A DNA stretch of 44,487 bases, taken from Hyphomicrobiales bacterium (GTDB lineage Bacteria; Pseudomonadota; Alphaproteobacteria; Rhizobiales; Methyloligellaceae). Below, piece by piece: positions 1-31,841 of the stretch (positions within the stretch are counted from its first letter, which is position 1; every line of letters begins with the position of its first letter). A program made the translations under genes and the position numbers. The notes below the pieces were generated by a model. It ran no database searches and was not told the origin of the DNA. It was given only the letters and a program-made list of their open reading frames with translations. The stretch spans positions 1 through 44,487 of the forward strand of contig JAJFHN010000001.1 in assembly GCA_021775595.1 (NCBI GenBank), given 5' to 3'.

Positions 1-254
1 CCAGGCAATGTGGCTGGCGGTGTAACGATGATCGCCAAATCAACCTCGTCGCCGATATCGACGAGGCGCGGATAAGCTTTCTTCCCCAGTATCTCCGCTT
101 CCTTTGGATGGATGGGGATCACCTCGCCCGCAAAAGCCGGATCGGCGCCCAGCAAGTTGCTCATGGTGATGTATCCGGCCTTGCCTTTTTTTGGCGTGGC
201 GCCGACGACCGCCAGGCGGCTTGGGTCGAACAGCGCCTTGGCCCAGCCGGTCAT
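1..254 (-). CDS. ADP-forming acyl-CoA synthetase, CoA-binding N-terminus (partial)
   Basis: Only the first 84 codons are present and the gene runs off the left edge. Translated from the ATG at 254, it reads MTGWAKALFDPSRLAVVGAT, then a Rossmann-like CoA-binding domain with the GEVIPIHPKEAEILGKKAYP stretch and DLAIIVTPP. This pattern is typical of the N-terminus of NDP-forming acetyl/acyl-CoA synthetases, in which a phosphohistidine enzyme joins an acid to CoA with ATP to ADP. The ATG overlaps the TGA of the upstream PLP-enzyme gene by 4 bases (ATGA), so it belongs to the same transcript. In this context it may activate a carboxylate made or released by the epoxide pathway; that is inference. 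The ATP-grasp part, if present, lies outside the window, and the substrate cannot be told. Confidence 0.8.
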   Translation of the reverse strand, partial: MTGWAKALFDPSRLAVVGATPKKGKAGYITMSNLLGADPAFAGEVIPIHPKEAEILGKKAYPRLVDIGDEVDLAIIVTPPATLP

Positions 255-1270
255 GCCAGCGCGCCTTGACCGACAAAGAGACTTGGTTCGCCGCCCGAGT
301 GCAGGAAAACCGCATTCGAGATGTCTTTGAAGCGTCCGGCATCGACGTGGTGCATGTAGCCGGCGAAGGCTTTGCCGGTATAGACGGGATCGAGAAAGAC
401 GCCGCAGGCGCGCGCTGTGGCAGTGATCGCGGCGTTGCCGGCCGGCGAGGCCTTGCCATAGCCCTCGCCAATAAAACCGTCATGAATGGTGATTTCGGCG
501 GCGCTGATTTCGTGGCTCAGTCCAACCAGCGCGGCGGCATCGCGGGCGAACATGGCGGCGCGATCGCGTGCCTCTTCGGCAGGCCGGCTCACCGTATAAC
601 CTTCGATTTGCCAAGGCGCGCCGATGAGACGCGAGCCCAACAGCCAGCCCGCGAGTGTTGCGCCCGAACCGACCGCGAGCACCACGAGGTCGGGTGTCAG
701 CCCTTTTTCCTCGCACTGGGCGGCGAATTCGGCCACCGCGTGAACGTGTCCCACGACGCCGAGCGGACATGCGCCGCCGCGTGGAATCACATAAGGCGCG
801 CGCCCGGCCTCCCGCAGCTCGGCCTCAACGGCATCAAGCGTGGTGTCGACCGATGCGCGGTCCATGTCGCGGGTGAAGCGCGTTTGCGCGCCAAGCATTT
901 GCACCAGGCGGAAGTTGCCCTGGATCTCCTCCGGCGGATCGCCCCAATACACGGCGACCATATCCAGCCCGCCGGCCCGAGCGGTGGCCGCGCTGGCGCG
1001 TACGTGATTGGAGAGCGAGCCGGCGCCCGTCACCAAGGTGTCGGCGCCCTTGGCGAGCGCATCGGCAAGCAGAAATTCGAGGCCGCGCACTTTGTTGCCG
1101 CCAAATCCAAAAGGAATCAGATCGTCGCGCTTGAACCAGAGTCCGGGCCCGCCGATTGCCTTTGCCAAGCGGTCTTGCTCAATCAGTGGTGTCGGCGCAC
1201 CGATCAAATTGTGCCTGGGCACGTCGGCGAACGGTCTCAGAGCCTCGGGCAATGCCGCTTTTGTGCTCAT
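251..1270 (-). CDS. xcbE1: PLP-dependent enzyme of CoM biosynthesis (XcbE1-like)
   Basis: A 339-residue fold-type II PLP enzyme of the D-cysteine desulfhydrase / ACC deaminase family. The likely Schiff-base lysine is K60 in FGFGGNKVRGLEF. GAGSLSNHVRASAA matches the substrate-carboxylate loop (GGIQSNH in relatives) and AVGSGATLAGW the PLP-phosphate loop. In Xanthobacter autotrophicus Py2 a member of this family is encoded last in the CoM biosynthesis cluster (xcbB1-C1-D1-E1) and acts in the late steps that bring in the thiol sulfur. The same gene order here supports that role over D-cysteine or ACC catabolism. The ATG directly follows the TGA of the preceding lyase (TGAATG), which indicates translational coupling. 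The exact reaction is taken from the family and context and is not visible in the sequence. Confidence 0.8.
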   Translation of the reverse strand: MSTKAALPEALRPFADVPRHNLIGAPTPLIEQDRLAKAIGGPGLWFKRDDLIPFGFGGNKVRGLEFLLADALAKGADTLVTGAGSLSNHVRASAATARAGGLDMVAVYWGDPPEEIQGNFRLVQMLGAQTRFTRDMDRASVDTTLDAVEAELREAGRAPYVIPRGGACPLGVVGHVHAVAEFAAQCEEKGLTPDLVVLAVGSGATLAGWLLGSRLIGAPWQIEGYTVSRPAEEARDRAAMFARDAAALVGLSHEISAAEITIHDGFIGEGYGKASPAGNAAITATARACGVFLDPVYTGKAFAGYMHHVDAGRFKDISNAVFLHSGGEPSLFVGQGALA

Positions 1271-2626
1271 TCAATTCCCGGCCTTCAAAACCGCGTCGAC
1301 CAACGGTCCACAAGCGCCGGTGTGGTTCGCGTAGTCGAACAAAGCCTCGATTTCCCCGGCGCTGAAGTGAGCCATGATGGCGCTTTCAGCGAGCACGGCA
1401 TCCTTCAACAATACGCCTTGGTCGTGGGCGCGCATGGCGGTCTCGTAGACGAGCTTGTGAGCGCTCTGTTTGCCGATGCGCGCGGCCAGCGCCAGCATCA
1501 CGGCCTCGGACAAGGTGTAGCCCTTGCTGGCCGCAAGGTTGTCCAGCATGCGGTCATCGTGGACTACCAAATTCTCTACCATGCTGAGCAGCAGCTCCAA
1601 GGCTTTGCCGGCGGCCATGGTGAGCTCGGGTATGGCGTGCCATTCGGTTTTCCACGATCGCCCATCGCGCTCGTGGTCGTGCACCAAGCTCTCATTGACG
1701 ATTTGCGCGTTGGCGCGCACGACGCGCGAGAGTGAGCCCAAATGCTCAGACGTTTCCGGATTGCGCTTGTGCGGCATGGTTATGCTGCCGACGGTGCCGG
1801 CGACGAACCCCTCGCTCAATTCGGCTAATTCGCTGCGCTGCAGGTTGTAGACCTCGTGCCCAATGCGGTCGGCGGTGGCGCTGATCAGCACCAGGACGTT
1901 GGCCCACTCGGCGAATTGATCACGTGAAACCGTCCAGGAGCTCTCAGGCGGGGCGAGGCCCAAGCGCTCACAAAAGTGGCGCTGAACCACGAGCGCGTCC
2001 ACGCCCAGCGACGACAGGCTGCCCACGCCACCGCACAGTTGGCCTACGTCCATGCGCGACGACAAATCGACAAGCCGCTGCCGATGGCGGCGAACTTCGC
2101 ACAGCCACCCGGCCACCTTGAAGCCAAAGGTGATTGGCAGGCCTTGTTGTCCATGGGTGCGCCCGGCCATCAGCGTATCGCGATGTGTTTGGGCGAGGCC
2201 GGCCAAGGACGTCTCGAGCTTCGCAAGATCCGCCTCGAACAGCCCACGCGCCTCTTTCAGCGCCATCATCAACCAGGTGTCGGTCAGATCTTGGACGGTG
2301 GCGCCATAGTAAAACCATTCGCCGCTCTCGCCTGGACAGCGGGTCTGCGCCGCTTTGATCAGTCCGACCGTGGAGTGGCCGCTTTCGCGATAGCCCTGGG
2401 CAACCTCATCGAGAAACGCGTCATCGACCGTAATCTCGCGGCAGGCCTTTGACACCTGCGCGGCCTCGGGTTTTGGAATAAGGCCAGCATCGGCCTGAAC
2501 CTCAGCGAGCACGGCGAGTATTTGCAGCCAGGCGGACGTGCGGGGACCGTCATCGAAGATGGCCCGCAGAGCCGGTGTCGTCCAGGCGCTGCCAAAGACG
2601 CGCGAATTCTGCGTCCAGCTCGACAT
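1271..2626 (-). CDS. xcbD1: Aspartase/fumarase-superfamily lyase of CoM biosynthesis (XcbD1-like)
   Basis: A 451-residue protein resembling adenylosuccinate lyase and 3-carboxy-cis,cis-muconate cycloisomerase. It shows the three superfamily regions: YGATVQDLTDT (about 107-117), GRTHGQQGLPITFG with an intact Thr-His pair (about 155-168), and the flexible active-site loop GSITMPHKRNPETSE (about 280-294). Such enzymes usually eliminate or add across a C-C bond next to a carboxylate. The neighbours (ComA-like synthase, second lyase, PLP enzyme) match the bacterial CoM pathway, where two members of this superfamily work on sulfonated intermediates. The start ATG at 2626 shares one base with the upstream TGA (TGATG). 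The long open frame upstream of this ATG lies inside the preceding gene and was not used. Purine biosynthesis (purB) is unlikely in this setting. Confidence 0.8.
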   Translation of the reverse strand: MSSWTQNSRVFGSAWTTPALRAIFDDGPRTSAWLQILAVLAEVQADAGLIPKPEAAQVSKACREITVDDAFLDEVAQGYRESGHSTVGLIKAAQTRCPGESGEWFYYGATVQDLTDTWLMMALKEARGLFEADLAKLETSLAGLAQTHRDTLMAGRTHGQQGLPITFGFKVAGWLCEVRRHRQRLVDLSSRMDVGQLCGGVGSLSSLGVDALVVQRHFCERLGLAPPESSWTVSRDQFAEWANVLVLISATADRIGHEVYNLQRSELAELSEGFVAGTVGSITMPHKRNPETSEHLGSLSRVVRANAQIVNESLVHDHERDGRSWKTEWHAIPELTMAAGKALELLLSMVENLVVHDDRMLDNLAASKGYTLSEAVMLALAARIGKQSAHKLVYETAMRAHDQGVLLKDAVLAESAIMAHFSAGEIEALFDYANHTGACGPLVDAVLKAGN

Positions 2627-4152
2627 CAGGCAATACCCGCGGCGGATTGCGCCTTGCCGACGAGCTTGGTCTGGGCGCGCGCTATTGCGCCCGCGCGCTT
2701 GTCTATGGTCCGCCGAAGAGCGCTGATCTCGGCGCTGAGCGACTTGATGGCTTCGTCGACCCGTTGGGGCGATGCGCCGCCAATGCACGAGCGAGCAGCG
2801 ACGCCCTGGCGGGAATCAAGCGCGCGGGCGATGAGATCGTCGTCGACGTCCAAAGCGTGGCCAATCGCCTGGTGCGCCGCCGTATCGAGATCGACCGCGG
2901 TGGCCGTGGCCAGGTTGCGGCCATCGGTTTCCAGTTGACGAATCATCAAGCCGATCACCTTGTGCGCCTGGCGGAAGTCGAGGCCGGTCGCCAGCATCAC
3001 GTGCTCGGCCATATCGCTGGCGGCCAGTTTCCCCTCAGCCAGCAGCGCTTTGGCGCGCGTCTTGTCGACCTCAAGTTCGGCCATAACGTCGGCCATCAGG
3101 TGAGCGCCTTGGGCGGCTTGGCCTAGGGAAGTTGGAATTTCTGCATAAGCGGCCAGGCGATTGTCCATCTGGCCGCTTGGCGTTCGCATCGATGCCGAAA
3201 TGGTCGTTTGGAGGCCGAGCGCTTGGTTGGCGAGCGAGCGCAGATAACTCAGGGCAAACGGGTTCTTCTTCTGCGGCATGATCTTGCTGGCGCGCGAATG
3301 ACCGTCACTCAATTTCACAAGGCCAAACTCTTGCGTTGCGAAGGTCATCAGGTCTTCTGCCAACCGGTCGATCGTAATGAGCGCGTTTGCGATCAGTGCA
3401 GCGGCCTCGATCGGCAAATCGGCTTGCCACATGGCGTCGCGGGTGTTGGCGGCCGGCGCGTCAAAGCCCATCAAGCGGGCAAGTGCGGCGCGGTCTTGGG
3501 GCGCAATCGAGCCATTGGCGCTGCCGCCGCCGGCGGGCGAGCTGTTGAAGCGGTCGAATAGGATCAGCGCGCGATCGACGTGGCGTGCGATCGGAAAGGC
3601 GAAGCCCAACAGATAGTGGCCGAAGGTGGTGGGCTGGGCGGCCTGCAGGTAAGTGTAATCGGGAAACAGCGTGTTGCGGTGGGCGCGCGCGGTCTTGGTC
3701 AGCGTGTCGGCGAGCGTGGCAAGCCCGTCGGCCAAGGTGAGCAGCTGGCTGCGCGTGGTCATATGGAAGCCGCAGGTGATGGCTTCGCGCCGGGCGCGTG
3801 AAACGCCAAGCCATCCGGCCGCATCGCAATGGGCGTTCAGCCAGGCTTCCCGGTTCGTGTAAATATCGCCGAGCGCGGGATCGAGCTCGAAGTCGTCGGG
3901 CCAGGCGTGGAGCTCGAGCAGCGCATGCAACAATTTGGCGGCGGCCTCGCGCGGGATCGGTCCCGACTTGCTCATCATCAACGTATGAGCCAGGTCGGCA
4001 TGGCTTACGGATTCAAAAAGCTGCTGCTGATTTTTGAGGTCTTCGGCGAACGCCGTGTCGATCAAGCGTTGCGAGGGTGCGGCACTGAGCCTGCCGCCGA
4101 CTTCGAGTACATCGTGATATGCCCGCGGCGCTTGCCCGTCAGGCGTGCGCAT
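2626..4152 (-). CDS. xcbC1: Aspartase/fumarase-superfamily lyase of CoM biosynthesis (XcbC1-like)
   Basis: A 508-residue protein closest by eye to argininosuccinate lyase. The signature loop SKIMPQKKNP lies at about 289-298 and the LQAAQPTTFGHYLLG region at about 169-183. In argininosuccinate lyases that region begins with Thr-His; here it reads TYLQ, so the usual general-acid/base histidine is Tyr168. The flexible loop has ASK in place of GSS. These changes argue against a genuine argH and fit a repurposed enzyme. In Xanthobacter, XcbC1 removes phosphate from phosphosulfolactate to give sulfoacrylate. The chosen ATG at 4152 overlaps the end of the synthase gene by 14 bases and has GAGG 9 bases upstream; ATG 4161 is an alternative. 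A large upstream extension of the frame is antisense to nothing useful and only shadows the synthase gene. Confidence 0.78.
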   Translation of the reverse strand: MRTPDGQAPRAYHDVLEVGGRLSAAPSQRLIDTAFAEDLKNQQQLFESVSHADLAHTLMMSKSGPIPREAAAKLLHALLELHAWPDDFELDPALGDIYTNREAWLNAHCDAAGWLGVSRARREAITCGFHMTTRSQLLTLADGLATLADTLTKTARAHRNTLFPDYTYLQAAQPTTFGHYLLGFAFPIARHVDRALILFDRFNSSPAGGGSANGSIAPQDRAALARLMGFDAPAANTRDAMWQADLPIEAAALIANALITIDRLAEDLMTFATQEFGLVKLSDGHSRASKIMPQKKNPFALSYLRSLANQALGLQTTISASMRTPSGQMDNRLAAYAEIPTSLGQAAQGAHLMADVMAELEVDKTRAKALLAEGKLAASDMAEHVMLATGLDFRQAHKVIGLMIRQLETDGRNLATATAVDLDTAAHQAIGHALDVDDDLIARALDSRQGVAARSCIGGASPQRVDEAIKSLSAEISALRRTIDKRAGAIARAQTKLVGKAQSAAGIA

Positions 4153-5050
4153 CGACGACATCCTCATCATCAGCGGCTTCTTCGCTCCCATTGTCGCCGT
4201 CTTCGACCTTGGCCGGATCCCATTGACCGGTTTGAACCGAAATTTGGGCGATCGGGGCAAATGTCTCAAAGCGCAAGCCCGAGCGCAGAGCCTCAAGAGC
4301 CAGGCAATCGTTGACGTCGATATTGCCCAGATTGACGTTGACGCCGATCTTCTTGATGAGCTCGGCCTGCTGCGGTTTCTGGGGCGCTTCCCAAATGAGC
4401 CAGTCGAGCTTGTCACCGGCGATGCCGGTGATCTCATCGAGCAGGTCTTGGCGAATACCGCCTTCGTCGTCGTAAATACCGACGCTGGCGCCGGATTCGC
4501 GCCCCTCGATGATCACCCAAGAAGCGCCGCCCTCCAGATCTTCCAGCGCCTGCTCGGCCATCTCCGTCGGCGATTGCTGATTGTTGGGGTCTTTGCGACC
4601 AACTTCGGTGATGGCGACGAGGTCGGCGTTCAGCGCACAATCGATGACGCGCTGACGGCGCCCGTCGGCCAGATTGATCGTGCCTTCGGATATTTCGACA
4701 GCCTTGAATCCGAGCGCCTTGGCGCGGGACATATAGACCCGGCAGTGCTCCTGCACGATCGAAGCTTCAAGCATGGTACCGCCGGGATAGGTGAGGATGT
4801 CGCAGGAATTGAGCGCTTCAATCTTGCGCTCTAAAACGTGTGCCGGCGTCAAAGCCGATGTGCCGAAGCCAAATTTCCAATGGTCGACATGGCCGCCGAT
4901 CACATCGAGCAAGTCTTCGGTGGCCTGCGCGCCAAGACCGGTATCGATCACCATCGTGACGCCGGTGCTCCGGGGCCGGCGCGAACGCCGGTCGATGGCC
5001 TTATCAAGGCCCCAGACGCCGCGCCAGGGCGACTTAAATGACCTCCACAT
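4139..5050 (-). CDS. xcbB1: Phosphosulfolactate synthase (ComA/XcbB1 type)
   Basis: A 303-residue TIM-barrel protein of the ComA family, which adds sulfite to phosphoenolpyruvate to form (R)-phosphosulfolactate, the first step toward coenzyme M. Family-like segments in order are TMVIDTGL, DHWKFGFGTS, YPGGTMLE, VEISEGTI, EVGRKDP, IIEGRESG, LIWEAPQKPQQ and VNVNLGNI. The C-terminus has an added acidic tail (about 280-303, rich in Asp and Glu). The start at 5050 has AAAGGAG 10 bases upstream and overlaps the previous gene by 17 bases. ComA homologues also occur in sulfolactate and spore metabolism, but the adjoining lyases and CoM-using enzymes make CoM biosynthesis by far the best reading. Confidence 0.9.
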   Translation of the reverse strand: MWRSFKSPWRGVWGLDKAIDRRSRRPRSTGVTMVIDTGLGAQATEDLLDVIGGHVDHWKFGFGTSALTPAHVLERKIEALNSCDILTYPGGTMLEASIVQEHCRVYMSRAKALGFKAVEISEGTINLADGRRQRVIDCALNADLVAITEVGRKDPNNQQSPTEMAEQALEDLEGGASWVIIEGRESGASVGIYDDEGGIRQDLLDEITGIAGDKLDWLIWEAPQKPQQAELIKKIGVNVNLGNIDVNDCLALEALRSGLRFETFAPIAQISVQTGQWDPAKVEDGDNGSEEAADDEDVVDAHA

Positions 5051-5999
5051 CTTTGGTGAGCTCCTTTAGCGCCTGTTCCACCATTTGCAGATCGGTGCCC
5101 CACGGCACGACCGCTACGTTGCCGTCCTGTTCGATGCCGAATTCAAGCAGACAACATTTCAGCATGGTGAATTCGTCGCGATCGCCTGCGATCTTGCGGG
5201 GACACATTTCGACGCGAGGCGGTTCATCACCATAATAATGGCGATGGAATTGAAGGGACCGTTCGCAGCCGATCAGCGTCCAGTCCTTGCGCTCGGGGGG
5301 GCGTTCGTCGAGGAAGTAGACCGGCGCCCCCAAGTCATCGAGCCCGCCTGAGCGGCAGGGCACCAAATAGGCTTTGGGCTTCACCTGGGCCGCCAAATCG
5401 CGCACCTCGATGCGTTCGAGCTCCAGCAAGATCGGCGGTAGATCGGCATAGGTCAGCACATGCTCGATCAAGTGGAAGAGCTTTGGCGGCTCGGGCGGTG
5501 CAACCTCGACCACGCGAATGACGAGCGGGTCGGGATGATGAATGAAGTTGATGTGGTCGAACAGACCTTCGCAGATCAGCGTACGATCGGGACCAACACC
5601 AATCTTCTTCGCCAGTTTGGCCAGGTCGGTGCGGTTGGCGCAGTCGGTTTCTTCGTCCTTGGCGTAGACGCATGTATCGGGAAGGGCCAGCACTTCGATG
5701 TGTTCGATCGGCGCGAACAGGGGTTCCCGGTCTTCGGCGTGAATGGCGACCAAGGCGCGCTCGTCGCCTTCACCCTCAAGCACAATAAAATTTGTGCGCC
5801 GATAGGCTTCGCGGCCCATAAAGTGGGAGACAATACCCTCTTCGCTCATCTCGCCGTCATATGGCTGACAGCTCACACCGCGATAAGGGATCTGAATGAC
5901 GTTCTTGCGGTCGCGGTAACTCGGCCACTTGGACGCAGACGCCTTGGCAGCGTTGCCGTCGTGCTTTGCTTCGTCGCGTGTCAGAACCTTTGTCGTCAT
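5034..5999 (-). CDS. Conserved-looking protein of unknown function in the CoM/epoxide operon
   Basis: I do not recognise this family. From the ATG at 5999 it is 321-322 residues with no signal peptide or membrane segment. It is rich in Cys and His: CVYAKDEETDC, LFDHINFIHHPDP, a short proline run VAPPEPPKLFHLIEH, YLVPCRSGG, LQFHRHYYGDEPP and a C-terminal MLKCCLLEFGIEQD. These suggest a metal- or ligand-binding fold but do not prove one. It lies between the CoA-transferase B subunit (35 bases upstream) and phosphosulfolactate synthase (17-base overlap), inside an otherwise fully assignable pathway. Start choice is uncertain: AGGAGG lies about 20 bases before this ATG, and a TTG at 6029 or a GTG immediately before the ATG would also be in frame. 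A role in CoM synthesis, CoM recycling or acetoacetate handling is inference. Confidence 0.75.
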   Translation of the reverse strand: MTTKVLTRDEAKHDGNAAKASASKWPSYRDRKNVIQIPYRGVSCQPYDGEMSEEGIVSHFMGREAYRRTNFIVLEGEGDERALVAIHAEDREPLFAPIEHIEVLALPDTCVYAKDEETDCANRTDLAKLAKKIGVGPDRTLICEGLFDHINFIHHPDPLVIRVVEVAPPEPPKLFHLIEHVLTYADLPPILLELERIEVRDLAAQVKPKAYLVPCRSGGLDDLGAPVYFLDERPPERKDWTLIGCERSLQFHRHYYGDEPPRVEMCPRKIAGDRDEFTMLKCCLLEFGIEQDGNVAVVPWGTDLQMVEQALKELTKDVEVI

Positions 6000-6034
6000 C
6001 ACAGGTCTGCCCAGTGGGCACCTCCTCAAGCAGT

Positions 6035-6868
6035 CTACCCGAAACCACGCTTGCGGTCGCCGGGTTGAAGCTCGCGTTCGTGAATCCTCATCGGATCGAG
6101 CCGGCGAATGAGTTCCACGACCTCCGGCTCGGGCAGGGGAATCGTAGCGACGTCATCGGCGAGCTTCGGCTCGAATTGCGTGCTTTCCATCACGTCGTCA
6201 ACAGACGTGTCGGAATACAAGCCAGTGAGTCTCATATGGCCATCATCGTCGAAATCGAAAACCCCTAGGTCGGTCACCAGGCTGTCGGGACCGCCACCGC
6301 GATGGCCCAATTCAGCTGGCCGCCGGCCATCGAGCGTACGATGGCCGAGATTGGTGATGAAGTCGCATTTCTCGACCAACCGGTAACGCCGTTTGCCTTG
6401 ATCGTTGGCCGGCGCGCGGTGCGCGGCGGTCCACAGCGTCATGGCGCCGACGTCGCAAGAGAGATTGCAGCCACCGCCGCCGCCTGGAAGCTTCAGCTTC
6501 AATTCGTTGGCGCCGAGCCGCGTGACGTTGCAACTGCCCCATTTGTCGATCTGCAGGCCGGAGAGAAACATGCGGTCCATGCGGCCGGCTGCCGCCAGAT
6601 CGAACAGTTCCTCGATGTCGAGTGCGGCTTCCGATCCCCGGTCCATCACCCAGTCGTTGGATGTCGGCGCCAGGAACGGCGGATTGGGATTGATGCCGTA
6701 GGTGGCGCCGGCCACCAGCACCAGGTCGGGTGCGTGGGTCCGTTTGGCCACGTGCAAGGCGAGCTGCACGAGCGGCGATCCGAATCCGTGGAAGGCGGCG
6801 GTTCCATCGTCAATGGTGCGGGCAATCGCCGCGATCATCGTTTCGCCGAGAGTTACTTGGCCACTCAT
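6035..6868 (-). CDS. CoA-transferase family I, subunit B
   Basis: A 277-residue protein of the GctB/IpdB-like CoA-transferase family, paired with the A subunit just upstream through a 4-base ATGA overlap. Visible features are FHGFGSPLVQLALHVAK near the N-terminus, AGATYGINPNPPF, the glycine-rich KLPGGGGGCNLS, and VEKCDFITNLGHRT. Family I CoA-transferases move CoA between acyl groups through a glutamyl-CoA thioester on this subunit; I cannot place the glutamate with certainty. In this operon the obvious acceptor is acetoacetate, or the homologous 3-oxoacid, made by the carboxylase, which would yield acetoacetyl-CoA for thiolysis. That substrate is inferred. A much longer in-frame extension across the A-subunit gene is not real coding sequence. 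Confidence 0.85.
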   Translation of the reverse strand: MSGQVTLGETMIAAIARTIDDGTAAFHGFGSPLVQLALHVAKRTHAPDLVLVAGATYGINPNPPFLAPTSNDWVMDRGSEAALDIEELFDLAAAGRMDRMFLSGLQIDKWGSCNVTRLGANELKLKLPGGGGGCNLSCDVGAMTLWTAAHRAPANDQGKRRYRLVEKCDFITNLGHRTLDGRRPAELGHRGGGPDSLVTDLGVFDFDDDGHMRLTGLYSDTSVDDVMESTQFEPKLADDVATIPLPEPEVVELIRRLDPMRIHERELQPGDRKRGFG

Positions 6869-7851
6869 GCCGGCGTACTCCCATAGAGCGACATCCATGC
6901 CTCGTCGCCATCTTTCCAAGAGCCCAAATGGCGCGCGGTGTCTTCGCCGCCGACCTTTTCCAGATAAGCCTCGTGGCTGGTGCAACCAAAGACGAAGGGA
7001 TCGAGATAGCCCGATTTGAAGGCCTCGGCGCCCTGCTTGGCTTGATCGTAGTAGTCTTTGGTGTGTGGCCGGTCGTAGGCATAGAAGGGGTAGCACGCGG
7101 TCGGGTGCGCGCCCATCGGCACTTCCGCCAAGGCGGTGACGTAAAAATAGGGGATGTTGGCGCCGCCCAGTTCCTTCAACCGTTCGTTGGAGACAATCTC
7201 TTCGACCGAGGCGACAACCTTCTTCGACGCCTTGGCGAACAGAATGTCGGCCACCGGCGGTCCTTCGATGCGCAAATTGCCGTGCGCGTCGCCATATTGG
7301 GCGTGAATGATCGCGACATCGGGTTGCACAGCGGGCACCAAGGTCAGCTCCTCGCCCGTGTAGGGGCAAGTCATGGTCTTGTATTCGGGATGCATGTCGA
7401 ACACCGAGGTGCCGCGGATCGAGCGCACCGGCATGAACGGCAATCCCATGATTGTGGCGCGTAACTGCTGGACCACCGTATAGCAGCAGCTGTCGTTGAC
7501 TTTCACATCGCCGGATTCGCACGCCCGCCGGTAGTTGGGGGCCATGCCGAAATCCTGCTCGAAACCGACATAGCTTTCGCTCGATTCCGAGACGCAGCCG
7601 CCGGCGCACAACAAATCGATATCGATGCCATGGGCCGAACCAACGACGTTGAGGTCCTTCACGCCCTTGCGGATGAGGGCGCGGATGATCGCCATCGGCT
7701 CGCGTGAGGAGAGCCCGCCGCCGACGGCAACGGTGTTGCCGTTTTCGACGTGACCTATCAGCTCGTCGAGTTCGGTGCGCTTGTCGCCAGCTGTGTGAAC
7801 GGGCGCGCCGGGCCAATCGGATCCATTTCCATTGGTTGGTGCGTCGGTCAT
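6865..7851 (-). CDS. CoA-transferase family I, subunit A
   Basis: A 328-residue protein of the glutaconate/3-oxoacid CoA-transferase alpha type. Key stretches are [20 protein letters not shown] (about 37-56), [48 protein letters not shown] and the conserved [10 protein letters not shown]. Its ATG overlaps the TGA of xecE by 4 bases, and its own TGA overlaps the B subunit start by 4 bases, so the two subunits are made in step. The pair most likely forms an alpha-beta enzyme that activates the product of CoM-dependent epoxide carboxylation. The N-terminal 20 residues look disordered. Confidence 0.87.
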
Positions 7852-8603
7852 ATCGCAGTCATGCCTCCGTCGACAGCAAACAGCGAACCGGTGACAAAGG
7901 CCGCTTGATCGCTCAGTAGAAAAACAACCGCCTCGGCGATGTCTTTTGGCTCACCAAACCGGCCGATGGGATATTTGGACAGGCGTTTGGCCAAAGTCTC
8001 GGGATCCATATCGCTGCCGAGAAGCTGTTTGCCCATGCCTGTCGAGGCCACGGTGCCAGGATTGACGGCGTTCACGCGCACGCCCTTGCCGGAATAGTCG
8101 GCCGCCATTTGCCGCGTCATATTGACGATGGCGCCCTTGGCGGCACAATAGGAGGCCATGGTTGGGATGCCTACCATGCCGGCCACCGACCCGAAATTGA
8201 CGATCGCACCCGTGCCGCGCTCGAGCATGCCGGGCAACACGGCGCGCGAGGCCAAGAACGTTCCGGTGACGTTGACCGCCATCATTCGCTCCCAGCCCTC
8301 GAGCGTTTCTTCATGCATCGGCGCGAATCCGGCGATGCCGGCATTGTTCACCAACCCATCGATCTGACCGAAGTCCTTCAAGATGGCGTCAAAGGCAGTT
8401 GTCATCGCCGCTTCGTCGGTGACGTTGCCGGCATAGCCTTTGGAGTCCTTGAGCTTGGCGGCTGACGCTTCGGCGTCGGCGCCGTTGAGGTCGATCAAGG
8501 CCAGCTTGGCGCCTTCGCGGGCGCAGGCCTCAGCCGTCGAAAATCCAATTCCGGCTGCTCCGCCGGTTATCGCCACAACTTTTCCGTTCAAACGGTCTGC
8601 CAT
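7848..8603 (-). CDS. xecE: S-2-hydroxypropyl-CoM dehydrogenase
   Basis: A 251-residue classical short-chain dehydrogenase with TGGAAGIG cofactor loop (13-20), NNAG (86-89) and catalytic Ser139, Tyr152 and Lys156. It carries RLSK at 207-210, matching the Arg/Lys pair that binds the CoM sulfonate in the S-specific enzyme of Xanthobacter Py2. The stretches [15 protein letters not shown] and [17 protein letters not shown], and the C-terminal AFVTG...AVDGGMTAI, agree with what I remember of that enzyme. It oxidises the S-alcohol made by epoxide opening to 2-ketoalkyl-CoM with NAD+. A ribosome site GGGGAA lies just before the ATG; the 71-base spacer after xecD is the main gap in this part of the operon. 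Confidence 0.9.
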
Positions 8604-8674
8604 TTACTTTTCCCCAACTGAGTGTTCACGAATTTCCATCACAAGATTCCAAAATCCAAATTGCCCGAAACCGC

Positions 8675-11052
<2,378 letters not shown>

Positions 11053-11059
11053 TTAGTCT

Positions 11060-11088
11060 GTTGCAGGGGCCGGCGCGGCGCCTGCAAC
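11060..11088. other. Intergenic hairpin between the zinc-ribbon gene and xecC
   Basis: GTTGCAGG at 11060-11067 pairs perfectly with CCTGCAAC at 11081-11088, with an inner GCC/GGC pairing and a 5-base loop. No T-run follows on the minus strand, so an intrinsic terminator is unlikely. An RNA processing or stabilising element in the operon message is a reasonable guess. Confidence 0.5.
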
Positions 11089-11133
11089 GAAACGATTATG
11101 ACGTAATACGTAATGTCGGAGTCTTGATCTCGA

Positions 11134-11358
11134 TCACCGTCCGGCGTTGCTGCGTGCGCCTCCGCCGCAGCACAGACATCCAGATCCGTGGGCACCGTCG
11201 TCCCAGGGATGAGGCTCTGGCTCACGGTCCGTGATCGGTTCTGCTTTTTCGCTGAGACAATTCGAGCAGACCCAGATTTCCGGGGGCTTGGTATAGGCGA
11301 GCACCATGCCTTTGAACTCGTGCGAGCAGTCGGGACATCGCAGCGTGTAAACGGGCAT
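11134..11358 (-). CDS. FmdB-like small zinc-ribbon protein
   Basis: A 74-residue protein starting MPVYTLRCPDCSHEF, with CPDC at 8-11 and CSNC at about 32-35: two CxxC knuckles that form a zinc ribbon, as in the FmdB family. The C-terminal part adds GCLCCGGG, a further cysteine cluster. Family members occur near formamidase, amidase and alkene/solvent metabolism genes and are usually called regulatory without firm proof. It stands between xecA and xecC, with a hairpin in each flanking spacer. Its role could be regulation, metal delivery to the zinc-dependent transferase upstream, or redox protection. None of these is shown by sequence. Confidence 0.78.
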   Translation of the reverse strand: MPVYTLRCPDCSHEFKGMVLAYTKPPEIWVCSNCLSEKAEPITDREPEPHPWDDGAHGSGCLCCGGGARSNAGR

Positions 11359-11388
11359 TGCAAAGCGTCCTGTGCGAAAGAAAGCGGT

Positions 11389-11414
11389 GGAGGGCGGCCC
11401 GAGAGCCGCCCTCC
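11389..11414. other. Strong intergenic hairpin downstream of xecA
   Basis: GGAGGGCGGC (11389-11398) and GCCGCCCTCC (11405-11414) form a perfect 10-bp GC-rich stem with a 6-base loop, 16 bases after the xecA stop on the minus strand. The following bases on that strand are only mildly T-rich. It may act as a partial terminator or 3' stabiliser that raises xecA transcript over the downstream genes. Confidence 0.6.
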
Positions 11415-11430
11415 GCGCATTTGAAACCGC

Positions 11431-12558
11431 TTAGGCGGCTTTTTTCTGCTTTTGCTCTTCGCGGAAGATCTTGGTGCCTTCCACCATCGCATGCAGCTTG
11501 TCCTGGCAGATGTAGCGCTGCAGCAGGATCAGGCCGCAGTCCGTCGTCACGCCAAGCCGGTCGGCCGGGATAACAGACGCCAAATGGCGAATGCGCTCAG
11601 CAACCTCTTCTGCGGTCTCGGTGATCGTGCTCTTGACGTCGATCACGCCAGCCCAGAAGTCGACATTGTCGGGAAGCGGATTGTCTTTGAAGACGTCGAG
11701 GCCCCCGAAATCGTCCGAGCGCCGGCCGCAGCTTTCCAGGTTGATGACGTCCATCGTGGCTTCGTAGGACTTCGGAATGACCGAAGCCGTGGCCGTCGGC
11801 GCGTCGGCGTCTTCGGCGCGTTTGGTGAGATCGAAGATCTCGCCGGCCTGTGCCGTTTCGTCCGGGTAATAGGCCGGCGTGCCGCCCCAGTTGCCCCAGC
11901 AGATGTGGCAAATGATCTTGGCGTTCTTGACGCCTTCGACGGCCGTGTTGAAGGCCTCGATCGCCCAGTCCTCGTAGAAGTAAGGCCAGGTGAACTCGTC
12001 GAGCTGAATAAAGTCGATACCGAGTGAATCAACTTCCAGCAGATCTTCGTTGATGGCTTTGGCGACGGCCAGTGCGCGATCGCGCGGGTTGGAGTAGTGC
12101 AGGTCGTTGGTGCACTGGGCCAGAACCTGGATGCCGGTATACTGGATCTTGGTGGCCTTCGTGGTCGCCCGCCTCAGCGCTTTGGCCTGCTCGACCATGA
12201 TGGCGCCATAGCGTTTGATTTCCTTTTCGGCCGTTCCGGCGTGCAGACGGCTGTAGATCGGGAAACCAAGATAGCCGCCCTTCAAATTGTAACCCAGGCG
12301 CTTCAGATAATAGTAGACGGCGGCATCGGCGTAGTTGTCGCTGTGCAGACGGCCGTCGGAGATGATGTCCAGACCGGCGATCTCCTGGTCTTTGGCGATC
12401 GCGCACATGGCGTCTTCGAGGGCCTCGCGATTCATCGAATCAGGCGGCTCCTGGTCACCGGTGAAATGGCGGCCAAAGGATGCGTCCCACCAGCGCGGGT
12501 TGGGATAGTTTCCAACCATACTGGTCGGGACCAATACGTCCTTACCTTGAATTTTCAT
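11431..12558 (-). CDS. xecA: Epoxyalkane:coenzyme M transferase
   Basis: A 375-residue zinc enzyme related to the C-terminal half of cobalamin-independent methionine synthase. It adds the CoM thiolate to the epoxide, the entry step of the pathway. Likely zinc ligands are His218 and Cys220 in ICHICWGNWGG and Cys341 in VTTDCGL, the HxC...C pattern of the family. IDFIQLDEF and NLESCGRRSDDF are further family-like segments. The start at 12558 (MKIQGKDV) has GGAGG 6 bases upstream; an earlier in-frame codon 8 residues upstream lacks this. It is the first gene of the run and directly faces the regulatory spacer. Length agrees with XecA of Xanthobacter (about 376 residues). Confidence 0.93.
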   Translation of the reverse strand: MKIQGKDVLVPTSMVGNYPNPRWWDASFGRHFTGDQEPPDSMNREALEDAMCAIAKDQEIAGLDIISDGRLHSDNYADAAVYYYLKRLGYNLKGGYLGFPIYSRLHAGTAEKEIKRYGAIMVEQAKALRRATTKATKIQYTGIQVLAQCTNDLHYSNPRDRALAVAKAINEDLLEVDSLGIDFIQLDEFTWPYFYEDWAIEAFNTAVEGVKNAKIICHICWGNWGGTPAYYPDETAQAGEIFDLTKRAEDADAPTATASVIPKSYEATMDVINLESCGRRSDDFGGLDVFKDNPLPDNVDFWAGVIDVKSTITETAEEVAERIRHLASVIPADRLGVTTDCGLILLQRYICQDKLHAMVEGTKIFREEQKQKKAA

Positions 12559-13087
12559 ATACTTCCTCCCATTACAAATCACTCTTTTTGCAAATCTAAA
12601 TTCTTGACGAACCGCCGAATTTCTCCGGCGAGATGCCGAGTGTGCGATGCGCGCTCAGCCGGTCCTCGAATCGATTTCGGCCTGGCATGACCCGATTGGC
12701 CGTTTTCCACTTTGATCCAGTCCTCGCAGCTGGCCAAGTGGGTAAATCGACGCGGTCATTTGCCTTGTTCTCAATCGACCCGAGTTGCGAATCCTTCGCA
12801 GACTTGCTAGTTCTCTTTTTGCTTGCATCTGAAATGGTCTTAGTTGACCATAATTAGTCACTTTACACCGATCCCCGGGGTGCGAGTCAAGCGGTTCCAA
12901 ACCTTGCTCGGCGTCACTGGGTGGTAGAGGTCCAGACGAGCATTGTAGAGGCGCGGACGAGCATTAGAGTGCTCGAAATTTGCCGAACAGTATGGTAGGG
13001 CTGCGGCGGTCCGGTCTATCCACAGGGGTCAAGTGACGGCTGTATTTGGTTTGCGTTACAGGTCGAAACAAAGAATTGTGCTAAGCG
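12559..13087. promoter_or_regulatory. Divergent control region between xecA operon and MEDS regulator
   Basis: No gene is visible in these 529 bases. They are less GC-rich than the flanking genes in parts and hold several symmetric sites: CGCCG...CGGCG (12613-12630) in the probable xecA leader, TGCGAATCCTTCGCA (12786-12800), an imperfect CAAGCGGTTCCAAACCTTG (12888-12906), and the CGAGCA/TGCTCG cluster listed separately. I could not place convincing -35/-10 or -24/-12 promoters by eye. The region must carry promoters in both directions. Confidence 0.6.
12905..12975. promoter_or_regulatory. Candidate operator: repeated CGAGCA/TGCTCG half-sites
   Basis: GACGAGCATT occurs at 12935-12944 and again at 12956-12965, exactly 21 bases apart (two helical turns). 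The second copy forms a perfect inverted repeat, CGAGCA-ttagag-TGCTCG, at 12958-12975. A further TGCTCG lies at 12905-12910. The same-face spacing and symmetry suit binding of a dimeric or multimeric regulator, most simply the product of the gene at 13088. No binding data are implied. Confidence 0.5.
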
Positions 13088-13873
13088 ATGGATAAAGCAA
13101 AAGGATTGCTGACGCTCGAGGAAGCCGCCCGCTATTTGGGGGTGAGCAAGACGTCGTTGCGGCGCTGGACGAACGAAGGCCGCTTGGCCTGCCACAGGGT
13201 TGGCGTGCGGCGCGAGCGGCGGTTCGATATTCGGATGCTGACCGAGTTTTTGTCCGGCGACGAATCGCAGACGACCAAGGCGCAGATCAGCAGCGGTGAT
13301 GTCGCGCTCGGCTTGTCCGATATGGCCAGCAGGGGTGCGCAGCGCCACGTTTGCTTGTTCTACCGCGACGCAGCCGAGCAATGGGCAAACTTCAAACCCT
13401 ATTTCCTCGACCATTTCAACGCCGGCGCGCCGACCGTCTATCTCTATGATTCTTCGACGCCCGATGAGATCTCGGCGCGGTTGGCCCAAGAGGGGATTGA
13501 TGCCCAAGCGGCTCAGGACAGTGGCCTGTTGCGGCTTTTCTCGTCGCGTGAATCCTATTTGAAGACCGGCCGCTTCAGCGCCGAGCAAATGATCGAGACG
13601 ATGCGTGGATTTGCCATGGGCCTGATCGATCGCGGTAGCAAAAAGCAATTGCTGGTGGGTGAGATGAGCTGGTTTTTCACTGGCGCTGAAGGGGTTGAGG
13701 AGATTCACGACTACGAGTCGCGCCTCAACGAATTGCTCGATCAACTGCCAAGCGTCACCATCGTTTGCCATTACGACGTAACGCGGTTCGATGCGGAAAA
13801 CGCCTTGCAGGCGTGTTGCTCGCATCCCGTGGTGCAGCTTGGCGAACGGCTGCAGTCGGGCTTTTACGTCTAG
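13088..13873 (+). CDS. MerR-type HTH + MEDS-domain regulator (DcmR-like)
   Basis: A 261-residue protein. Residues about 7-56 form an excisionase/MerR-like helix-turn-helix (LTLEEAARYLGVSKTSLRRW followed by a basic GVRRERRF wing). Residues about 86-258 match the MEDS domain (methanogen/methylotroph DcmR sensory domain), beginning RHVCLFYRDAAEQW and containing PTVYLYDSS, LLVGEMSWFF and a VTIVCHYDVTRF strand. MEDS proteins are thought to sense small hydrocarbon derivatives; DcmR controls dichloromethane dehalogenase in Methylobacterium. Being divergent from xecA, it is the likely regulator of the epoxide/CoM operon. The ribosome site is weak. Activator versus repressor cannot be decided. Confidence 0.85.
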   Translation: MDKAKGLLTLEEAARYLGVSKTSLRRWTNEGRLACHRVGVRRERRFDIRMLTEFLSGDESQTTKAQISSGDVALGLSDMASRGAQRHVCLFYRDAAEQWANFKPYFLDHFNAGAPTVYLYDSSTPDEISARLAQEGIDAQAAQDSGLLRLFSSRESYLKTGRFSAEQMIETMRGFAMGLIDRGSKKQLLVGEMSWFFTGAEGVEEIHDYESRLNELLDQLPSVTIVCHYDVTRFDAENALQACCSHPVVQLGERLQSGFYV

Positions 13874-29663: not shown

Positions 29664-31841
29664 ATGACACACACCCACGACATCACCCGCCGCAATTTCA
29701 TTGTCGGCACCGCCGCTGCCGGGGCCGGCCTCACGCTCGGGTTCTATGCGCCGCTTGGCGGGACCGCACCCCTCGCTGCTGAACAAGCGCACGAGGTGAA
29801 CGCCTGGGTGGTTGTCAAACCTGACGACACGGTGGTCATCCGCATCGCCCGCTCGGAGATGGGACAGGGCACGCTTACCGGCCTTGCCCAGCTCGTGGCC
29901 GAGGAACTCGAATGTGATTGGTCGAAGGTCACAACGGAATATCCGACGCCGGGCCAGAACCTTGCGCGGGGACGCGTCTGGGGCAGCTTCTTCACCACCG
30001 GCAGCCGGGGTATACGCGGCAGCCACGAATATGTCCGCCAAGGCGGCGCGGCAGCCCGCCAACTTCTGATCGAGGCCGCCGCCATACGCTGGAAGGCCGA
30101 GCCCGCGGAATGCCAGACGGCGGCCAGCGTCATCACCCATGTGCCTACGGGCCGGACAACGACCTACGGCGCCGTGGCGGGGGAGGCAGCCGATCTCGCC
30201 GCGCCCTTCGACGTCGCCCTGAAAGATCCCAAGGACTGGAAAATTGCCGGCAAGCCGCTCCCCCGGCTTGATACGGCAGACAAGGTCACGGGCAAACAGG
30301 TCTATGGCACCGACATCAATTTGCCGGGGATGCTCAATGCCGCGATCAAGGCTTGCCCGGTGTTCGGCGGCACGCTGAAAAACTACGACGAAGCCAAGGT
30401 CTCCCGCATGCCCGGCGTCCGCAAGATCGTGCCTGTCGGTGACGACGCGGTGGCCGTCGTCGCCGATACTTGGTGGAGGGCGCAGAAAGCCCTAGATGCG
30501 CTTCCCGTTACATGGGATTTCGGCCCAAACGCAAAAGCCTCGAGCACCGATAGCGCTCAGACGCTAAGGCAAGGCCTGGAAGCGAAAGACGCATACATAG
30601 GCAACAGGGCAGGCGACATCGATGCAGCGCTCGCAAACGCGGCGACGAGGGTCGAGGCCGACTACGCCTACCCCCATCAAGCCCACGCGACCATGGAGCC
30701 GATGAACGCAACGGCGTTGTGGACCAAGAACAAATGCGAGGTTTGGTGTCCGACCCAGAGTGGCGAAGCGGCGCTCGCCGCCACGGCTAGGGCAGCTGGA
30801 CTGCCGCGGTCGCGGTGCGACGTTTACAAACTCCATCTGGGTGGCGGCTTCGGGCGACGGGGCGCCTTTCACGATTTTGTCGAGCAGGCGGTGACTATCG
30901 CCAAAGAGCTTCCTGGCACGCCGGTCAAGCTAATCTGGTCGCGCGAAGAGGACATGACCCACGACCATTATCACCCTCTCACCCAAGCGCGGCTTGTCGG
31001 AGCGCTCGACGAGAACGGCGATCTCACCGGCTTGCGCGTGCGTATTTCGGGTCAGTCGATCATCGCCTCGGTGATGCCCGGGCGGATGTCGAGCGGCGCC
31101 GACATGTTCGTCTTCCAATGTCTGGCCAAGGGCGGCGATCACGCGATCAGCTATGACATCCCAAACCTGCTGTTCGATCACGCCATGCACAATCCACACG
31201 TGCCGCCTGGCTTTTGGCGCGGCGTCAATGCCAACCAGAACGTCGTCTATATGGAATGCTTCATCGACGAGCTTGCCCACGCCGCCGGCAAGGATCCGCT
31301 GGCGTTTCGGCGAAAATTGCTGAGCAAGAATCCAAAGAGCCTCGCGGTGCTCGATGCGGTGGCCGAGCGGGCCGGTTGGGACAAGCCGGCGCAGGCGGGT
31401 GTTGGCCGTGGTCTGGCGGTTTGCAAGGCCTATGGCAGCTATGTCGCGGCTTGTGCCGAGGTTTCGTTGAAGGACACGCGAGACCTCAAAATCCATCGCA
31501 TCGTGGCGGCGACCGATCCAGGTGTTGCGGTCAACCCGCGCCAAATCGAGATGCAGATGGAGGGCTCCTTTGTTTACGGTCTCTCGGCGCTCCTTTACGG
31601 CGAGTGCACCGTGAAGGAGGGGCGCATCGAGCAGCAGAACTTCGATAGCTACGAGGTGATGCGTTTGGCCGAGATGCCCCAGGTCGAGACGATCGTGATG
31701 CCCTCAGGAGGGTTCTGGGGCGGGGTCGGCGAACCGACCATCGCGGTCGCTGCGCCCGCGGTGCTCAACGCCATCTTCGCTGCGAGCGGCAAACGCTTCC
31801 GTCAGGTGCCGCTCAAAAACGCCGGCTTGAGGCCAACCTGA
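29664..31841 (+). CDS. Molybdenum hydroxylase large subunit, IorB-like
   Basis: A 725-residue subunit of the isoquinoline 1-oxidoreductase/aldehyde oxidase type. The N-terminus has a Tat signal (RRNFIVGTAAAGAGLTLG). Family features are SEMGQGTLTGLAQLVAEEL, LHLGGGFGRRG (cofactor loop), ATMEPMNATA, and near the C-terminus GGFWGGVGEPTIAVA with the expected catalytic Glu. The substrate is unknown: an N-heterocycle or aldehyde is likely. No cytochrome subunit or maturation gene lies beside it, so electron transfer and cofactor insertion must rely on genes elsewhere. Confidence 0.9.
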   Translation: MTHTHDITRRNFIVGTAAAGAGLTLGFYAPLGGTAPLAAEQAHEVNAWVVVKPDDTVVIRIARSEMGQGTLTGLAQLVAEELECDWSKVTTEYPTPGQNLARGRVWGSFFTTGSRGIRGSHEYVRQGGAAARQLLIEAAAIRWKAEPAECQTAASVITHVPTGRTTTYGAVAGEAADLAAPFDVALKDPKDWKIAGKPLPRLDTADKVTGKQVYGTDINLPGMLNAAIKACPVFGGTLKNYDEAKVSRMPGVRKIVPVGDDAVAVVADTWWRAQKALDALPVTWDFGPNAKASSTDSAQTLRQGLEAKDAYIGNRAGDIDAALANAATRVEADYAYPHQAHATMEPMNATALWTKNKCEVWCPTQSGEAALAATARAAGLPRSRCDVYKLHLGGGFGRRGAFHDFVEQAVTIAKELPGTPVKLIWSREEDMTHDHYHPLTQARLVGALDENGDLTGLRVRISGQSIIASVMPGRMSSGADMFVFQCLAKGGDHAISYDIPNLLFDHAMHNPHVPPGFWRGVNANQNVVYMECFIDELAHAAGKDPLAFRRKLLSKNPKSLAVLDAVAERAGWDKPAQAGVGRGLAVCKAYGSYVAACAEVSLKDTRDLKIHRIVAATDPGVAVNPRQIEMQMEGSFVYGLSALLYGECTVKEGRIEQQNFDSYEVMRLAEMPQVETIVMPSGGFWGGVGEPTIAVAAPAVLNAIFAASGKRFRQVPLKNAGLRPT

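Follow-up and report, generated by a model that had tools for sequence, protein, structure and literature searches.

A chromosomal coenzyme M-dependent epoxide-carboxylation operon in a Hyphomicrobiales draft genome that encodes copper membrane monooxygenases

Coenzyme M (CoM) is rare in bacteria. A close counterpart of the locus considered here is that of Xanthobacter autotrophicus Py2, whose clusters for CoM-dependent epoxide carboxylation lie on the conjugative plasmid pXAUT01. The first copy comprises a divergent regulator with a MEDS domain, xecA, a small open reading frame (ORF), xecC, two genes for short-chain dehydrogenases/reductases (SDRs) and xcbA-E; a second full copy and a decayed third lie further along. 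The third consists of SDR, SDR, CoA-transferase A and B, xcbA-D and CoA ligase, followed by genes for a disulfide reductase and for a transporter of the sulfonate type. One copy is adjoined by the six genes of a soluble diiron monooxygenase (SDIMO), and a LysR gene is found 3' of xcbE in two. As deposited, the first xcbA copy (L003:19311-20185) is split over two frames; the other two are unbroken. The present work concerns the corresponding operon of the window, i.e., the entire contig C1 (JAJFHN010000001.1, 44,487 nucleotides) of a draft genome of a Hyphomicrobiales bacterium (GCA_021775595.1, here G000; 2.9 Mb, 103 contigs, 97.8% complete), in which the genes shared with the first Py2 copy follow the same order and the location is chromosomal.

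Other bacteria carry comparable gene sets. For Methylohalobius crimeensis, the available part of PMC11507031 describes a 13-gene cluster with CoM genes, a glutaconate CoA-transferase, an acyl-CoA synthetase and a MEDS regulator, and mentions similar clusters in other methanotrophs. According to the same text, M. crimeensis resembles the window in having a single cluster, no alkene monooxygenase and a copper membrane monooxygenase (CuMMO) in the genome, but differs in its single hydroxyalkyl-CoM dehydrogenase, its methanotroph host, the role assigned to the cluster (ethylene detoxification) and its placement on a genomic island. The marine propylene user Halieaceae PE-TB08W shares with the window a Py2-like epoxyalkane:CoM transferase (EaCoMT) and CoM genes, although there a soluble monooxygenase cluster adjoins the epoxide genes (PMC6440738, in the part available).

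Gene content and relatives of the operon

The operon consists of 13 genes transcribed in one direction on the minus strand, from position 12558 to the left contig edge, and the named genes are intact (Table 1). Their order is xecA, a zinc-ribbon gene, xecC, two SDR genes, CoA-transferase A and B, xcbA-E and the start of an acyl-CoA ligase gene, with successive junctions of 72, 138, -4, 71, -4, -4, 35, -17, -32, -1, 0 and -4 bases, where 138 becomes 135 if the zinc-ribbon stop codon is counted and -32 hinges on the start chosen for xcbC. A first-pass annotation had recognized all four xec functions, namely EaCoMT, 2-ketopropyl-CoM carboxylase/oxidoreductase (2-KPCC) and the R- and S-specific 2-hydroxypropyl-CoM dehydrogenases (R- and S-HPCDH), as co-directional with the CoM genes, overlapping at several junctions and equipped with built-in product activation. 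The shared direction and the overlaps are borne out, the -4 junction occurring four times and -1 once, next to those of -17 and -32, and a CoA-transferase pair that may activate the product lies inside the gene run. The annotation had counted four xcb-type genes where there are five, xcbA-E, and had overlooked the zinc-ribbon gene between xecA and xecC.

In the alignment of XecA with the Py2 enzyme, His218, Cys220 and Cys341, the zinc ligands of EaCoMT (His-x-Cys...Cys), are kept. XecC shares 68-69% of its residues with the 2-KPCC of Py2, whose structure is solved, and its C85, C90, F502 and H507 correspond to Cys82, Cys87, Phe501 and His506, of which the Cys pair is presumably the redox one and the Phe/His pair presumably replaces the His/Glu dyad. 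The first SDR has the solved R-HPCDH (2cfc) as its top match, with the next chain far behind, and keeps Ser142, Tyr155, Lys159, Arg152 and Arg196; the second is matched best by 4gh5/4itu, an entry that we take to be S-HPCDH, and keeps the Arg and Lys that align ahead of YPIGRFG. XcbA, XcbB/ComA, XcbC and XcbD all score above their NCBIfam cut-offs, and XcbE is placed by the PALP family and by its similarity to Py2. Full-length relatives of the truncated ligase combine PF13380, PF13607 and PF13549. To judge by these alignments, the operon carries the markers of the Py2 type: the EaCoMT ligands, the 2-KPCC residues, both dehydrogenases and xcbA-E.

The dehydrogenases also bear on the kind of epoxide. 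SDRs were tabulated for 26 loci of our choice, 12 from non-methanotrophs (window and Py2 included) and 14 from methanotrophs. R- and S-like SDRs occur together in 11 of the 12 non-methanotroph loci, L031 having one SDR, and in none of the methanotroph loci, 13 of which have one SDR while L027 has two S-like ones. Of the traits of the methanotroph clusters, the window lacks the single dehydrogenase, and its host shows the CuMMO without an alkene monooxygenase. Because R- and S-type SDRs are both present, the window looks propene-type despite the CuMMOs of the genome. Such a pair favours chiral-epoxide catabolism over ethylene detoxification, which falls short of proof of growth.

Searches for relatives returned 87, of which the best 80 were kept, 78 of them loci from genome contigs. 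Three loci from betaproteobacterial metagenome-assembled genomes (MAGs), L014, L021 and L023, match the window gene for gene over all 13 genes, xecA through CoA ligase (xecA of L023 is truncated by its contig end); they differ from it in their hosts, and a test of G387 and G388 showed both to lack the SDIMO family PF02332. In the comparison of gene order across xecC-bearing genomes that the first-pass annotation proposed, the run proves complete but its organization is not unique, given these three matches. The contrast drawn there with the Py2 megaplasmid does not stand, as pXAUT01 already has the same unit in three copies. A cluster located on a chromosome has been published before as well. 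Novelty by one-unit organization was accordingly considered and dropped. The gene set is known from other bacteria, and the window is a further example of a rare operon.

In identity, the nearest XecC proteins (67-70%) come from Acidimicrobiia-type MAGs (L007-L011, L024, L036, L064, L075, L076, L084), in which the clusters are rearranged and lack the zinc-ribbon gene. Several of their isolate names seem to us to resemble those of sponge metagenomes.

Table 1. Features of the operon and its upstream region in the window
Feature	Position	Strand	Evidence
Divergent regulator, HTH_17 and MEDS (DcmR-type sensory) domain	13088..13873	+	Pfam PF14417 9e-40, PF12728
Tentative operator/promoter element TGACTAANNATGRTCAACTA preceding xecA	12841..12860	-	
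xecA, EaCoMT	11431..12558	-	76% identity to Py2
GC-rich stem-loop between xecA and zinc-ribbon gene, no U-tract	11389..11414	-	RNA fold, z -2.93
Small zinc-ribbon protein, 74 aa, FmdB-like	11134..11358	-	PF09723, below cut-off
xecC, 2-KPCC	9424..10998	-	PDB 1mo9 E 5e-253
R-HPCDH	8675..9427	-	2cfc E 1e-96
S-HPCDH	7848..8603	-	4gh5 E 7e-101
CoA-transferase subunit A	6865..7851	-	PF01144 E 8e-25; 71% to Py2 third-cluster gene
CoA-transferase subunit B	6035..6868	-	PF01144 E 2e-5, barely above cut-off; 67% to Py2
xcbA (DUF7714, CoM biosynthesis)	5034..5999	-	NF052538 486 bits, cut-off 150
xcbB, phosphosulfolactate synthase (ComA)	4139..5050	-	TIGR03849 306.9 bits, cut-off 280
xcbC, aspartase/fumarase-superfamily, CoM synthesis	2626..4170 (start may be 4152)	-	NF052535 634.5 bits, cut-off 575
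xcbD, second aspartase/fumarase-superfamily enzyme, CoM synthesis	1271..2626	-	NF052536 659.1 bits, cut-off 600
xcbE, pyridoxal phosphate-dependent (PALP) enzyme	251..1270	-	PF00291 E 2e-41; ~62% to two Py2 copies
ADP-forming acyl-CoA ligase, start; gene cut by contig end	1..254	-	PF13380

The zinc-ribbon gene and transcription of the operon

The zinc-ribbon protein, whose gene is unannotated, is 55% identical to Xaut_4866 over 53 residues and matches PF09723 with an E-value of 2e-7 and 31.2 bits, under the 34.4 cut-off. A profile search of the fetched loci yielded 33 ORFs, of which 31 are distinct (those of L001 and L096 repeat the window and L013), and Cys8, 11, 31, 34, 61 and 63 are invariant across the 31 rows of the alignment. 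For 30 of the 31 distinct ORFs xecA lies on the same strand, 12-218 bases off as measured between matched ranges, the exception being L016, whose contig stretch lacks xecA. Viewed from the transferase, 30 of 44 loci whose xecA is of the Py2 type (at least 65% identical) have the gene, against 0 of 13 of the etnE type; the 14 Py2-type loci without it comprise ten Acidimicrobiia-type ones, L017, L066, L077 and L034, whose xecA starts at the contig edge. It stays by xecA even where xecC is distant (L013, L015, L057, L059, L067), and among 72,556 plasmid records it occurs in pXAUT01 only, in two places, both also with xecA. Structure prediction gave a fair model (pLDDT 80.1, pTM 0.59), for which the PDB yielded nothing at an E-value of 0.001 or below. 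A literature search returned no paper joining a zinc ribbon or FmdB with an epoxyalkane transferase, and zinc is unmentioned in the available part of PMC11507031. This constant company suggests that the protein may be a partner dedicated to EaCoMT, for zinc or for assembly.

The stable stem-loop between the two genes has counterparts elsewhere. Of the 21 loci in which a complete xecA is followed by the zinc-ribbon gene, 13 leave at least 40 bases between the two, and at least 9 paired bases in a run are found at 11 of these (not at L022 and L083), with a median z of -2.57 and a range from -5.87 to +1.1; the sequences are unrelated and the shape is similar. Since the sequences differ and the window's stem-loop lacks a U-tract, a 3'-end stabilizer or partial attenuator is more likely than a terminator, and expression of xecA may differ from that of the remaining genes. 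Overall, the junction spacing fits a single transcription unit, as far as spacing can indicate, with the stem-loop qualifying uniform expression.

Upstream, the divergent regulator is 46% identical to Xaut_4864, which occupies the same position in Py2. The tentative TGACTAANNATGRTCAACTA element is also found upstream of both intact Py2 xecA copies; its pattern is expected 0.01 times in the window, but it was derived from the window-Py2 match itself, which at 18/22 is just above 25 shuffles (14-17), and a different word matches L019 as well as this element matches Py2. No convincing sigma-54 promoter or shared operators were seen, scans for promoters and terminators did not rise above shuffled sequences, and tRNA was the single match of an Rfam scan.

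Source of the epoxide

We consider it probable that the window holds a chromosomal operon for CoM-dependent epoxide carboxylation of the propene type, supplied with epoxide by a CuMMO encoded elsewhere in the genome and not by a soluble diiron enzyme. In such a scheme the xcbA-E products would make CoM and a CuMMO would epoxidise propene-like alkenes; XecA would then use CoM to open the epoxide, the R- and S-dehydrogenases would oxidise both hydroxyalkyl-CoM enantiomers, XecC would carboxylate the ketone and release CoM, and the CoA-transferase, perhaps together with the ligase, would activate acetoacetate to acetoacetyl-CoA. The enzyme identities and the gene order are those set out above, and the pathway steps would follow, by analogy, the known chemistry of Py2. 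The supply by CuMMO, acetoacetyl-CoA as the end product and a role of the zinc-ribbon protein in zinc handling are what we infer beyond them.

The first-pass annotation expected an alkene monooxygenase to the left of the operon. The run does go on to the contig edge, but the gene there encodes the acyl-CoA ligase and no monooxygenase. No continuation was found in the assembly: the window's first 200 bases occur in C1 only, and a Succ_CoA_lig search of the genome for the rest of the ligase gave one weak match, on C38. In the relatives, consulted instead, the ligase is followed by a disulfide reductase, an aldehyde dehydrogenase or a NitT/TauT-type transporter, and none shows a monooxygenase. 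PF02332 has no match in the genome itself, whereas 7 of the 15 genomes or records searched, the Py2 plasmid included, have matches, so that the expectation is not upheld.

The genome does contain four genes for CuMMO subunit A (PF02461), on contigs C57 (L104), C73 (L105), C75 (L102) and C101 (L103). The operons on C101 (A-B-C) and C57 (C-A-B) are complete (PF02461, PF04744, PF04896); that on C73 is C-A-B with C cut by the contig start, and on C75, a contig of 7.1 kb, A-B was found but no C. Four CuMMO operons of differing type thus share one 2.9 Mb genome, and C73 also holds a partial extra, fifth amoB-like gene. The top PDB matches of the C75 subunit A are ammonia monooxygenases and methane monooxygenases of gammaproteobacterial, not alphaproteobacterial, origin. 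Neither this subunit nor any CuMMO was found in the other 29 of the 30 genomes searched in the family. The order A-B-C is the one reported for pxm operons (PMC6215863, in the part available). Next to the CuMMO on C57 (L104:4514-15876) lie genes for a benzoate-CoA ligase family protein, BoxA, BoxB and 3-oxoadipyl-CoA thiolase; next to that on C73 lie a thiolase-family gene, an acyl-CoA synthetase gene and an enoyl-CoA hydratase family gene. Among CuMMOs that act on short alkenes is the pMMO-like one described, in the absence of a soluble monooxygenase, for Haliea sp. ETY-M/ETY-NAG, which in this resemble the window's genome; they differ in being gammaproteobacteria that grow on ethylene only, and a CoM operon is not described in the available part of the report (PMC4036023).

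The coupling is proposed because operon and CuMMO co-occur in one genome, and the thiolase-family gene beside the CuMMO on C73 supports it. Several points weigh on the other side. No CuMMO gene lies near the operon, and the link is one of co-occurrence in a single draft genome, to which contigs C57 and C101 might, in principle, have been assigned wrongly in binning. The assembly ends within the operon and the remainder of the ligase gene did not turn up, so that the gap could conceal a monooxygenase. Moreover, the cluster genomes G387, G388, G390 and G397 are also without PF02332, and with at least four such genomes the absence of an SDIMO is by itself no sign of a CuMMO. Finally, the genome has two P450s.

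Of the alternatives, the one that survives best, although we regard it as unlikely, is that the operon serves detoxification only: the CuMMOs would have other substrates and co-oxidise trace alkenes, and the operon would clear the resulting toxic epoxides without growth. This role has been proposed for M. crimeensis, with the same gene set, a CuMMO and no alkene monooxygenase (PMC11507031, in the part available), and one CuMMO of the present genome lies within a benzoate (box) region; yet none of the 14 methanotroph loci combines R- and S-type SDRs, and the window has both, like the propene-growing type. It is improbable that the operon belongs to ordinary alkene catabolism and that its soluble diiron alkene monooxygenase is missing from the assembly. 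The contig does break inside the operon with the ligase remainder unrecovered, and the Py2 monooxygenase adjoins the corresponding operon, but it does so on the regulator side, which here is fully assembled and holds hsp20, ptsN and rpoN; the ligase side of the relatives is free of monooxygenases, and the genome is 97.8% complete. An epoxide from outside or from another oxygenase, such as one of the two P450s (L097:294-1646, L098:7424-8863), is very improbable, for although these genes are present and XecA enzymes take several epoxides (PMC6440738, in the part available), no link of either P450 to the operon came to light and the one on C3 has LUT5 and P450-BM3-like chains as its best-scoring PDB relatives. 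One of the P450 genes lies close to a contig edge and is followed by a weak Meth_synt_2-family gene.

The wider combination, in which a CuMMO feeds a two-enantiomer pathway in an alphaproteobacterium and EaCoMT has a dedicated zinc-ribbon partner that has so far escaped attention, in Py2 as well, is put forward tentatively, with rather less confidence than the supply by CuMMO.

Host, distribution and significance

To the right of the operon lie hsp20, ptsN and rpoN, in agreement with the first-pass annotation, which had named the core genes rpoN and ptsN as neighbours. Because the same contig carries rpoN, lptB, pheS, pheT, lepA and tRNA-Leu, the operon is chromosomal. The LepA of the contig is 77-78% identical to that of six alphaproteobacteria, 59-61% to that of five beta- or gammaproteobacteria and 52-56% to that of three others (LepA was not found in one genome of the comparison set), and by this measure the host chromosome is assigned to the alphaproteobacteria. 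A molybdenum hydroxylase resembling xanthine dehydrogenase, under every curated cut-off, is encoded at 29664-31841.

Of the 385 genomes searched in the class and the 397 in the order, this one alone gave an XecC match (E 1e-100 or better). In a tree built by a quick method, the window's XecC falls outside a supported clade in which five loci from alphaproteobacteria lie, four belonging to methanotroph genera or a methanotroph family, and groups with Py2, two gammaproteobacterial MAGs and ten Acidimicrobiia-type loci (SH-aLRT 87, an open fork). Composition gave no sign of recent transfer, the operon genes being about equal to the flanking ones both in GC (0.58-0.65 vs 0.56-0.63) and in GC at third codon positions (GC3; 0.68-0.79 vs 0.64-0.80). 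Lateral acquisition of the operon would be the simplest reading of the distribution and the XecC tree.

What makes the locus interesting is the proposed coupling to a CuMMO, together with the putative zinc-ribbon partner and the lineage. An alphaproteobacterial lineage is added with a complete CoM and epoxide pathway on the chromosome, and the zinc-ribbon gene leaves a question that can be put directly to the test, in a pathway under study for decades. If a copper enzyme does feed the operon, two families of gas-oxidising enzymes would converge on one CoM pathway, which would bear on short-alkene consumers where copper enzymes dominate.

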